A DNA stretch of 36,391 nt. Origin: Elusimicrobiaceae bacterium (GTDB taxonomy: Bacteria; Elusimicrobiota; Elusimicrobia; Elusimicrobiales; Elusimicrobiaceae). Of the stretch, positions 13,238 to 23,946 are shown in pieces. The translations under genes were made by a program, and so were the position numbers. Numbering within the stretch: the stretch's first letter is position 1; the number at the start of each line of letters is the position of its first letter. The notes beneath the pieces are model-generated. The model did no database searches and was not told where the DNA came from. It saw only the letters and a program-made list of their open reading frames with translations. The stretch lies in the NCBI GenBank assembly GCA_017501565.1, contig JAFVWP010000112.1, positions 1 to 36,391 of the forward strand. Reading direction: 5' to 3'.

Positions 13238-14026
13238 TTATTTGGAGAAATCTATCGTCAGCATTTCCGGCACAATCAAATAATACATACTAATCAAAGC
13301 CCCGGCGCTCAAAAAAGGCCCGAACGGAATAGCGTCGCCCTTTCCCTTGCCTTTAAAAATCATTAAAAATACGGAGTAAACAAGCCCCAAAGCTGATGCA
13401 AAAATAATGGTGGTAATCACACCTTCCCAACCGACAAAAGCCCCAATACCGCCCATCAGCTTTACATCACCGCCGCCCATGGCTTCTTTCTTAAACATTA
13501 CATATCCGAGCAAGGCTACCGCCAAGGTGCCGAAAAACCCTACCCCGGCCCCCAGCAAGCTTTGCAAAAAGCGGTCCAATAAGGTGCCGGCAAAGTTGGG
13601 ATTTAAAGCAAAAGTAGCCAGCCCCAAAACAATTAATCCCAAAGAAAAGCGATCCGGAATAATCATCAGCTCCAAGTCAATCACGGATAAAATAATCAGG
13701 CAATATACCGCCGTCAACAATACGGCCGTCCAAGGCGTTAAGCCCCAATGCCAAACAAACAAAAGGGTAAGCGCGCCGGTAATAAACTCCACAATGGGAT
13801 ATTGGCAAGAAATCGGCGCTTTACAATGGCGGCACTTTCCCCATAAAATCAAATAGCTTAACAAAGGAATATTGTCATAAAACGCAATATGTTTCCCGCA
13901 TTTCGGGCAGCCGGACGGCGGCCACACAATAGATTTATTTCTGGGAATGCGATAGATGCAAACATTCAAAAAACTGCCGATAATCAAACCGAAAATGGTC
14001 GCAAAAACTAAAATTAACGTTTCCAT
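13238..14026 (-). CDS. pilD: Prepilin peptidase / N-methyltransferase
   Basis: 262 residues. The cytoplasmic zinc-type loop has CPKC (40-43) and CRHC (65-68), as in the bifunctional peptidase/methyltransferase. The aspartyl protease residues are D117 or nearby D125 (VIDLELMIIPD) and D187 (MGGGDVKL). About seven to eight membrane helices. It cleaves the leader of type IV pilin-like proteins at G-F and methylates the new N-terminus in the inner membrane. Good ribosome binding site (AAGGAG). It is the last gene of a minus-strand operon directly behind a pseudopilin gene, its likely substrate. Confidence 0.96.
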   Translation of the reverse strand: METLILVFATIFGLIIGSFLNVCIYRIPRNKSIVWPPSGCPKCGKHIAFYDNIPLLSYLILWGKCRHCKAPISCQYPIVEFITGALTLLFVWHWGLTPWTAVLLTAVYCLIILSVIDLELMIIPDRFSLGLIVLGLATFALNPNFAGTLLDRFLQSLLGAGVGFFGTLAVALLGYVMFKKEAMGGGDVKLMGGIGAFVGWEGVITTIIFASALGLVYSVFLMIFKGKGKGDAIPFGPFLSAGALISMYYLIVPEMLTIDFSK

Positions 14027-14051
14027 GAAAGCTCCTTATATTCAAAAGAAT

Positions 14052-14074
14052 CCCCCGAAGAAAAATCTTCGGGG
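14052..14074 (-). terminator. Intergenic hairpin, possible attenuator between pseudopilin and pilD
   Basis: A CCCCGAAGA/TCTTCGGGG stem sits between the pseudopilin stop and the pilD ribosome binding site. On the minus strand no clean T run follows. It is therefore more likely a partial terminator or RNA-stabilising stem that lets the pilin be made in excess of the peptidase. Confidence 0.5.
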
Positions 14075-14084
14075 AATTGATAAA

Positions 14085-14501
14085 TTAATGAGTATGCCAG
14101 GCTTTGCCGTAGCTGTCTTCTTTATCCGTATTTACAAAAACATCACCAAAGCGCGGGTCGGCCGGGTCACTGACATAGGCCCAACCGCCTTGTTTGCTAA
14201 AGGCATTTTCATAAGTGCCGAAGGATACTTCGTTGCTGGGTTTTAATCCGGGCACTTTGACTTGCGGAATAGACTCTATATATCTGGGCACCAGGCTATT
14301 TAAATTATCGGTCGGATAGACCCCCTGATTTTCCCCATAATAGGCGGCAATCGCACTGCGCAAGCGTACCAATTGATGTTTGGTGCTGCCTTCTTTGGCT
14401 TTATCTACCAAAGAAACAAACTTGGGTATTGTAAACCCTAATAACACCGCAAAAACAACAATCGTTACCAAAATTTCAAAAAGGGAAAAGCCTTTCTTCA
14501 T
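14085..14501 (-). CDS. Type IV pilin-like / GspG-like pseudopilin
   Basis: 138 residues. Short basic leader MKKG, cleavage before F5, and the conserved glutamate at +5 (GFSLFE), followed by the hydrophobic helix ILVTIVVFAVLLGFTIPKFV and KAKEGSTKHQLVRLRSAI. The C-terminal globular part (YPTDNLNSLVPRYIESIPQ, then GGWAYVSDPADP) resembles type II secretion major pseudopilin GspG and gut Elusimicrobia-type pilins. After processing by the neighbouring peptidase it would assemble into a pilus or pseudopilus. No assembly ATPase or platform gene is in the window. AGAGG ribosome binding site; 11 bp from the upstream M20 gene. Confidence 0.9.
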   Translation of the reverse strand: MKKGFSLFEILVTIVVFAVLLGFTIPKFVSLVDKAKEGSTKHQLVRLRSAIAAYYGENQGVYPTDNLNSLVPRYIESIPQVKVPGLKPSNEVSFGTYENAFSKQGGWAYVSDPADPRFGDVFVNTDKEDSYGKAWHTH

Positions 14502-22559: not shown

Positions 22560-22949
22560 TTAAAAACTTGAAGTTCTATAAGCAAAATCTCTTACTTTGT
22601 TTGAACTGTCAAATTTCACGATAATGGTCAATGTTTTTTGGGAACTACGAGTAGAAGATCTAGAATTACTACCTGCTCCCAATAAAAACCAAACACCCAT
22701 TTCCGAGCCGGAAGAATCTATTTGGGTAGAAATTTTATCATACACCCAAGTTTCTCTACGCAAGTCATCTGTAGTTACCATATTAGGACTTCCTAAAATC
22801 TCAACTACTTCTGCGGAAGACATTCCCACTTTTATTTCTTTCTGAACCTTAGCGATGGTCATTCTTTCTTGCTTTTCAGAAGGAAAAGATGCATAGCACC
22901 CCATTGTGACCAAACATCCAACTAATAATACTAGCAATGTTTTCTTCAT
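22560..22949 (-). CDS. SmpA/OmlA (BamE)-like lipoprotein
   Basis: 129 residues from the ATG at 22949, preceded by AGGAGAT; an upstream in-frame GTG-type start is rejected. Lipobox VTMGC (C18). The core TIAKVQKEIKVGMSSAEVVEI, LGSPNMVTTD and RETWVYDK is the BamE/SmpA_OmlA pattern (K-G-M-s-x-x-e-V-x-x-x-L-G-x-P ... W-Y). A Ser-rich loop and a beta strand (TLTIIVKFDSSNKVRDFAY) finish it. True BamE belongs to the outer-membrane assembly complex, but this fold is reused widely, so that role is not claimed. First gene of a three-lipoprotein operon that lies behind the structured RNA region. Confidence 0.8.
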   Translation of the reverse strand: MKKTLLVLLVGCLVTMGCYASFPSEKQERMTIAKVQKEIKVGMSSAEVVEILGSPNMVTTDDLRRETWVYDKISTQIDSSGSEMGVWFLLGAGSNSRSSTRSSQKTLTIIVKFDSSNKVRDFAYRTSSF

Positions 22950-23003
22950 AAGATATCTCCTATTTTCTTTCGAATCTTTAACAACCATTTATTTAAAAAC
23001 AAA

Positions 23004-23255
23004 TAAAAAAACGGCTGTTATATTTGAGCCAGTAACGCTAACCCAAAAGTAACAGCCGTGGCTCCTGCCATATTTATATGGCAGGAAGCACTCGACACAA
23101 CATATCCAAGGGATCAACTCGGATATGTTGTGTCTAAAACGACTGTCTTTGGAGCGTTACTGTGCCATTGGTATCCCAACAGCGCACCGTATTCTGCACA
23201 CGGTTCCAAAAACAGATTCAAATTGTATACTACTATTGGCAAATAAGTAGCCAAT
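23004..23255 (-). ncRNA. Candidate novel structured RNA or attenuating leader
   Basis: A minus-strand unit of about 250 nt, with a promoter upstream and a terminator at its end, containing no credible ORF. Stems (plus-strand coordinates): 23235-23240 with 23250-23255 (6 bp); 23162-23165 with 23184-23187 plus an inner 6-bp helix (23166-23171 with 23176-23181); 23094-23107 with 23121-23134 (14 bp perfect); 23064-23071 with 23078-23085, closing a 6-nt loop; 23030-23039 with 23153-23162 (10 bp perfect, enclosing the previous two); and 23011-23020 with 23050-23059 (10 bp, then T run on minus). The last two interleave in pseudoknot order. It does not match tmRNA, RNase P RNA, SRP RNA or any riboswitch I can recall. 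It could be a stand-alone RNA or the regulated leader of the lipoprotein operon that starts 55 nt beyond the terminator. Confidence 0.6.
23005..23059 (-). terminator. Terminator of the candidate RNA, with a 29-nt loop
   Basis: On the minus strand ACGGCTGTTA (23059-23050) pairs with TAACAGCCGT (23020-23011), followed by TTTTTT. The loop of 29 nt is unusually long and contains a segment complementary to an upstream part of the same transcript. Confidence 0.7.
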
Positions 23256-23261
23256 ATCTCA

Positions 23262-23290
23262 ATTATAATAACTTCAGATTATTTTGTCCA
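23262..23290 (-). promoter_or_regulatory. Near-consensus sigma-70 promoter of the candidate RNA
   Basis: On the minus strand TGGACA (23290-23285), a 17-bp spacer and TATAAT (23267-23262). One mismatch in the -35 and none in the -10. Predicted start near 23255. Confidence 0.7.
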
Positions 23291-23375: not shown

Positions 23376-23404
23376 AAAAAAACCACCTGAAAAGGTGGTT
23401 TTTT
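23376..23404. terminator. Rho-independent terminator (copy 2 of the repeated hairpin)
   Basis: AACCACCT-GAAA-AGGTGGTT (23381-23400) with A and T runs, matching the terminator of tRNA-Leu at 21559-21584. On plus no gene precedes it. On minus it could end a short transcript from the hairpin-rich stretch at 23419-23492. Confidence 0.8.
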
Positions 23405-23548: not shown

Positions 23549-23595
23549 ATAAAAAAAATAGTTAATAACCATCATTTCACAAGGAAGTGCCGCTT

Positions 23596-23946
23596 ATGAG
23601 CCGATACAACATCAAAACCTTAAAAGAAAAACAAGCCATTATGGACTGCCTGTTAAAACATGGTTGGAAAGAAACTTTGAAAAAATATGACGTCCCCCGC
23701 TCCACCTTGGTTCATTGGAAAGAAAGAGTTCAATCCGGCAACAAAGTGGATTTAGCACTTTTGCAACGCAAGGTAAAAAGACGCACCATTCGCCCCGAAA
23801 CGGCGGCTTTGGTCAAAAAATTACATGCTGAAAATCCGTCTTATTCTTTGGAGCAAATCAGGGAAAAAGTCCTTAAAACACAAAAAATATCCAGAACCAA
23901 AATTTGGCATATTTTGCACGACGAAAAAGACGTTATTTTCCAATAA
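23596..23946 (+). CDS. Orphan double helix-turn-helix protein, transposase/integrase DNA-binding-domain-like
   Basis: 116 residues from the ATG at 23596; the GTG at 23587 lies too close to the AAGGAAG site. Two HTH-like units are visible: residues about 8-48 (KEKQAIMDCLLKHGWKETLK, then KYDVPRSTLVHWKERVQSGN) and about 67-110 (IRPETAALVKKL, then YSLEQIREKVLKTQKISRTK). This bipartite form is that of the DNA-binding head of IS3/IS481/IS630-type transposases and integrases. No DDE catalytic domain follows: the frame stops and a clean terminator comes next. So it is either a transposase remnant kept as a DNA-binding protein or a small regulator. It has its own promoter and terminator, which argues for function. 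Confidence 0.7.
   Translation: MSRYNIKTLKEKQAIMDCLLKHGWKETLKKYDVPRSTLVHWKERVQSGNKVDLALLQRKVKRRTIRPETAALVKKLHAENPSYSLEQIREKVLKTQKISRTKIWHILHDEKDVIFQ

Follow-up and report, generated by a model that had tools for sequence, protein, structure and literature searches.

What is encoded by a gene-free stretch that starts at a strong-looking promoter and ends at an intrinsic terminator, in a genome of the poorly studied phylum Elusimicrobiota? The window analysed here is a contig of 36,391 nt from an Elusimicrobiaceae bacterium (JAFVWP010000112.1, assembly GCA_017501565.1), in which positions 23255-23005 on the minus strand correspond to a promoter-to-terminator RNA of about 250 nt. An earlier note on this DNA had proposed a structured RNA of no recognised family. 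As described below, the window RNA is one member of a new leader-RNA family of Elusimicrobiota, and most of its relatives directly precede a gene.

The RNA element in the window

The minus strand carries a sigma-70-like promoter followed by perfect stems (P0 to P4) and a final hairpin with the end GCCGTTTTTTT (23015-23004), and no convincing gene was found within this stretch (Table 1). The promoter, the lack of genes, the stems, the terminal hairpin with its T run and the size of about 250 nt were thus all as the earlier note had described them. Its impression that the pairing density exceeded chance was also borne out, with a minus-strand fold of -120 kcal/mol compared to a mean of -73.3 kcal/mol for 100 dinucleotide shuffles (z = -10.5), none of which reached as low. 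The exclusion of tmRNA, RNase P, SRP and 6S RNA needed no revision either; ARAGORN detected no tmRNA in the window, and at the gathering scores of Rfam 15 no family reached threshold for the RNA, with two tRNAs being the only elements across the window to do so. A permissive Rfam search of the RNA gave just terminator-like matches at chance level. Rfam, one of the checks that the earlier note had suggested, had thereby given no match, and a further one, covariance analysis, revealed overwhelming covariation in homologues. The element is therefore real, but two features had been overlooked, namely a pseudoknot (23162-23153 with 23039-23030) and a gene on the same strand, having its ATG at 22949, 57 nt behind the RNA.

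Table 1. Positions of the RNA, its parts and the downstream genes in the window
Feature	Position	Strand	Remarks
Sigma-70-like promoter, TGGACA-17-TATAAT	23262..23290	-	11/12 consensus matches; expected start site ~23255
P0, 5' hairpin, ATTGGC-TACTTATTT-GCCAAT	23235..23255	-	At expected 5' end
P1 5' strand, CTGTTTTTGGA	23205..23215	-	Nearly invariant
P2a hairpin	23187..23203	-	5/5 pairs covary
P2b hairpin	23164..23183	-	7/8 pairs covary
PK5, pseudoknot 5' arm, CAGTAACGCT	23153..23162	-	7/7 pairs covary
P1 3' strand, TCCAAAGACAG	23143..23153	-	From alignment
Candidate antiterminator strand, GACAGTCGT	23139..23147	-	Complementary to terminator 5' arm; calculated helix energies
P3 long hairpin	23094..23134	-	16/16 pairs covary
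P3 apical part, GAGTTGATCCCTT, with palindrome GATC	23120-23108	-	Loop palindromes across copies
P4 hairpin	23063..23087	-	10/11 pairs covary
Intrinsic terminator	23004..23059	-	5' to 3': T5, inner stem, pseudoknot loop, T3, U run
Terminator 5' arm T5, ACGGCTGTTA	23059-23050	-	
PK3, pseudoknot 3' arm, AGCGTTACTG	23030..23039	-	Inside terminator loop
Terminator 3' arm T3, TAACAGCCGT	23020-23011	-	U run 23011-23005
Shine-Dalgarno AGGAG of predicted regulated gene	22957..22961	-	
First predicted regulated gene, BamE/OmlA-like lipoprotein, 129 aa	22560..22949	-	PF04355, 28.8 bits vs cut-off 23.2
Second gene of probable operon, lipoprotein-like, 171 aa	22032..22547	-	No Pfam match
Third gene of probable operon, lipoprotein-like, 136 aa	21612..22022	-	No Pfam match

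Upstream of the RNA promoter, a nearly symmetrical terminator (AAAAAACCACCTGAAAAGGTGGTTTTTT, 23377-23404) could act on both strands. Further away lies an ORF of 119 aa with a helix-turn-helix (23587-23946), its weak HTH_32 match being below the cut-off, which is perhaps a transposase remnant.

Fold and covariation

Within the fold, P2a and P2b are enclosed by P1, and P3, P4 and the terminator follow. A first alignment of 18 copies, from which covariance model R1 (208 positions) was built, had 94% of its cells paired, with both sides changing in 47 of the 75 pairs and with 233 double-changed cells compared to 70 in shuffles. A set of 20 copies from a second group, left out of model building and yet aligned by model R1, gave a similar picture (both sides changing in 50/68 pairs; 198 double-changed cells, 61 when shuffled). 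The RNA fold is supported by covariation in both alignments. This included the pseudoknot, all pairs of which covaried in the first alignment and which was kept in the second group too. Because P1 and the lower stems of the terminator hardly vary across copies, direct proof of these by covariation is impossible. Among the more variable parts, many copies have by eye a hairpin of variable sequence at the position of P0, most have a TATAAT-like box 5' of P1 (positions clustering near -75 or at -40 to -15), and in some the U run is short or interrupted.

Spread and copy number of the family

A search at the DNA level gave copies in 16 of the 41 genomes covered, and some of these genomes had several. 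Model R1 matched 62 of the 66 genomes in the genus and 82 of the 90 in the family Elusimicrobiaceae, as well as 12 of the 90 genera of the phylum. Those records that carry names were, with few exceptions, Elusimicrobiaceae genomes, most of them obtained from gut samples of ruminants and other animals. The second group (family f15), with up to 25 copies per genome, belongs to a separate class, which from its place in the phylum is probably Endomicrobia. Copy numbers ranged from one to about 100 per genome, with three full copies in the source genome of the window (the window copy and those on C119 and C78). At E <= 0.01 genome G057 had 59 matches and G055 had 135, of which about 100 scored above 100 bits, the others including weak antisense shadows. 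Pattern matches outside Elusimicrobiota, in a gammaproteobacterial MAG (L149) and in Glaciecola (L186), were discarded as chance, the covariance model giving no match there, and an exact-pattern scan of viral contigs for the leader RNA found none.

One cassette, consisting of a leader and the gene for an HsdR-like protein, was 92-98% identical between two genera with differing upstream flanks (L338-L341), from which sequence comparison the leader and gene are seen to move together between genera. In another locus of this group (L339) the leader abuts different downstream DNA.

Genes behind the RNA

A Shine-Dalgarno sequence with an ORF of 80 aa or more, starting 15-130 nt past the terminator, followed 168 of 185 copies (91%), as compared to 19% when looking upstream and 11% for randomly placed positions. 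For this reason the RNA is most likely, judging from gene order, a regulatory leader of the downstream gene and not an isolated RNA gene, while the earlier note's structured RNA without a recognised family did hold. The median gap between terminator and gene was 39 nt, and there is therefore no room for a separate promoter plus a ribosome-binding site.

Most leader-linked genes are type IV pilin-like. In G055 and G057, 82 of 88 sampled leaders stood before pilin-like genes with a prepilin motif, and examples from the source genome contained PF07963. Other leader-linked genes encode outer membrane barrels, lipoproteins, glycosyltransferases (GT2, GT8 and GT9), pyruvyl transferase, a sulfatase-family membrane protein and YrbL, or belong to restriction-modification (a DNA methylase and an HsdR N-terminal protein). 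Surface and restriction-type genes of these kinds are typically phase-variable in other bacteria.

Several observations concern the pilin-like genes as such. The loci sampled (L090-L129), which belong to two genomes of 1.5-1.7 Mb, held 106 prepilin-type ORFs in about 785 kb, scattered rather than arrayed. Some pilin-like genes of G055 (L090-L109, e.g. minus-strand ORFs in L105) have no leader and instead a T12-13 tract between a -35 (TTGACG/TTGACT) and a -10 element (GATATT), and many of them are arranged divergently, back to back, with a pilin gene that has the leader. Promoters resembling slipped-strand phase-variable ones and the leader thus serve one pilin-like family in G055, but the leader RNA has no repeat tract and its control would be exerted at termination. 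In the window, a prepilin peptidase (PF06750/PF01478) adjoins a pilin-like gene without a copy of the leader RNA (13238-14501).

Possible alternative pairing between P1 and the terminator

The P1 3' strand plus extension (AACAGUCGU) and the terminator 5' arm (ACGGCUGUU) are complementary to each other. Mean calculated helix energies (n = 183) were -13.3 kcal/mol for P1, -13.1 kcal/mol for the antiterminator and -16.3 kcal/mol for the lower stem of the terminator, while other leader segments reached a mean of -4.7 kcal/mol against T5. By calculation, the P1 and antiterminator helices are isoenergetic and would form a balanced alternative pairing. In eight copies P1 has CUA for CUG (G-to-A), and the terminator arm also has CUA in five of these eight and in none of the 175 others; several of the eight copies are related, so that this coupling represents few independent events. 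Complementarity, balanced calculated energies (183 copies) and coupled substitutions make a mutually exclusive antiterminator pairing possible, with an intrinsic terminator located between the promoter and a gene on the same strand, and no space for a second promoter.

We hence read the leader, with a rough probability of 0.62, as a cis-acting transcription attenuator for surface and contingency-type genes, predicted to operate through a P1/antiterminator/terminator switch and probably as a homodimer. By default, P1 would close, the copy-specific pseudoknot would fasten the terminator loop to the P1 junction, and transcription would stop around 23005. In the alternative state AACAGUCGU would pair with ACGGCUGUU, the terminator would be blocked and the gene would be transcribed. 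Conditional termination and the direction of switching are here what we infer from the pairings.

A further strand complementary to P1-5' was found just before the Shine-Dalgarno sequence in 43% of copies (e.g. L124 and L009), as compared to 4% of shuffles, but the window shows no clear counterpart. It reads UUCCAAAAACAGA, or in G055 GUUUCAUAAACAGA.

A copy-specific pseudoknot

In the pseudoknot, the terminator loop pairs over about 10 bp with the segment that precedes P1-3'. In 99% of 129 copies this duplex ran without interruption for 7 bp or more, most often 10, as compared to 23% with arms combined from different copies, and these 129 copies had 110 distinct pseudoknot strands. The pseudoknot sequence consequently appears, in comparisons between copies, to behave like a tag. 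Among sampled copies of one genome no two had the same 8-mer of this tag, and between unrelated leaders its identity was on average 33%. In several groups of orthologues across genomes (YrbL, GT2, a pilin and pyruvyl transferase) the tag was identical, with P3-P4 drifting there to 67-85% identity. A few orthologue-like pairs did differ in tag. Unlike a slow drift, the HsdR leader of G049 has both arms of its tag changed almost throughout relative to those of G021, G102 and G104, whereas the rest of the leader shows few changes; L341 is the member of the HsdR cassette group having both arms replaced.

Matches to the tag showed no excess in the flanking gene or the upstream region, and the exact 10-mer tag of the window recurred twice elsewhere in its source genome, close to the number expected by chance. 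Apart from the absence of identical tags (0/1956 pairs within genomes, and also 0/1716 between G055 and G057), there was no detectable tendency for copies in one genome to avoid similar tags.

A palindromic loop that changes in sequence

The apical loop of P3 holds palindromes with turnover in sequence, including UAAUUA, GAUC, UUAUAA, UUCGAA, UUGCAA, UCAUGA, AGCU and others. Every distinct P3 loop of at least 6 nt contained a palindrome of at least 4 nt (40% when shuffled), and 70% had one of at least 6 nt (6% when shuffled), with no such excess being seen in the loops of P2 or P4. The layout of the apical loop was 2+6+1 in 57 of 132 copies. Self-complementarity of the loop is hence kept through sequence turnover, for which pairing of one RNA copy with another is the best explanation. 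Since almost every P3 loop is palindromic, homodimers would be implied. Leader RNAs that share a loop type could kiss pairwise, and the RNA would then probably act as a homodimer or be controlled through one.

The kissing loop of the HIV-1 DIS has an apical palindrome of six bases with unpaired flanking bases (PMC7357161). P3 of the leader likewise has a palindromic apical loop with unpaired flanks, but its palindrome varies by copy and lies within a bacterial gene leader, and its dimer is a prediction from sequence.

What may control the switch

As to the trigger, recognition between leaders is our favoured guess, which we rate slightly above a small molecule. The palindrome would then provide contact and the pseudoknot sequence identity, so that both unusual features would be put to use. 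The boldest version of it would be a barcoded RNA-sensing switch, in which the palindromes join two leaders and the 10-bp pseudoknot arms, swapped between the partners or not, check the tag of the partner. We hold this elaborated form to be speculative, and somewhat less probable than a riboswitch.

In a small-molecule riboswitch, P1 to P4 would be an aptamer that binds a metabolite or a second messenger, e.g. a cyclic dinucleotide, and the palindrome would merely aid folding or ligand-induced dimers. The layout of P1, antiterminator and terminator is common to many riboswitches, and GGDEF proteins occurred in 9 of 9 genomes tested. They were, however, equally present in G078, a genome without a detected copy, and the alignments revealed by eye no strongly conserved unpaired core, with the P2a-P2b junctions and the hairpin loops varying freely. 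In other bacteria c-di-GMP riboswitches of pilus and adhesin genes are known, e.g. before type IV pilus genes in Clostridium difficile (PMC6200980), a placement that the leader shares, but the leader has no match to those Rfam families and its regulon includes restriction-modification and LPS-type genes. The regulated genes have no common metabolic theme, and a small ligand would leave the differences in pseudoknot sequence from copy to copy unexplained. We regard a riboswitch as a possible but not a probable reading.

Antitermination that depends on a protein (LoaP/RfaH, ANTAR or similar), with the RNA as a leader for surface-gene operons, is in our view unlikely. Such factors typically target surface polysaccharide genes and pilins, which fits the genes found here, and proteins could bind at the conserved sequences of P1 and T5. 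The regulated units are, however, mostly short genes, and each of five genomes had one NusG-family gene and no RfaH/LoaP paralogue, with no NusG-family gene found in the incomplete source assembly.

The RNA could also be a stand-alone small RNA acting in trans, its gene merely being placed before surface genes. Its own promoter and terminator would suit this, and terminated leaders would build up as RNAs of about 250 nt. Given a tight and directional gene association without space for another promoter, and a pseudoknot sequence without excess matches in flanking genes, we consider this quite improbable; an Hfq-type small RNA was dropped from consideration, as six genomes had no Hfq. A MITE-type mobile repeat that folds by chance would fit about 100 copies in one genome and the joint movement of leader and gene between genera, but is hardly credible and was dropped in view of covariation and fixed position, the copies being strongly divergent with helices kept through compensating changes, their location being fixed relative to start codons, no transposon ends being seen and viral contigs giving no pattern match.

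Relation to known leaders and meaning of the family

The attenuator that we favour resembles known transcription-attenuating riboswitches and leaders in its order of promoter, closed P1 domain, P1 3' strand complementary to a terminator arm, intrinsic terminator, ribosome site and gene. It differs from them in that no conserved ligand core was found, in having about 100 copies in one genome, and in a terminator loop joined to the folded domain by a copy-specific 10-bp pseudoknot. To our knowledge, copy-specific pseudoknots and changing self-complementary palindromic loops have been described for no bacterial leader RNA. We found no literature on this leader RNA, or on a leader-linked pilin expansion, in Elusimicrobiota, in a search covering few subscription papers or preprints, and provisionally regard the family as undescribed so far.

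These results reveal a large, well-supported RNA family in a gut phylum that has been little studied; in some genomes an exceptional number of pilin-like genes is present and the leader precedes most of them. The tags and palindromes make direct sensing between leaders in bacteria a testable question, and the family provides a candidate mechanism by which antigens could vary without any rearrangement of DNA. Should the barcoded switch be true, about 100 paralogous pilin genes in one cell could each be autoregulated, bistable or mutually exclusive through RNA alone, and such an RNA-sensing leader switch would be a new route to antigenic variation.
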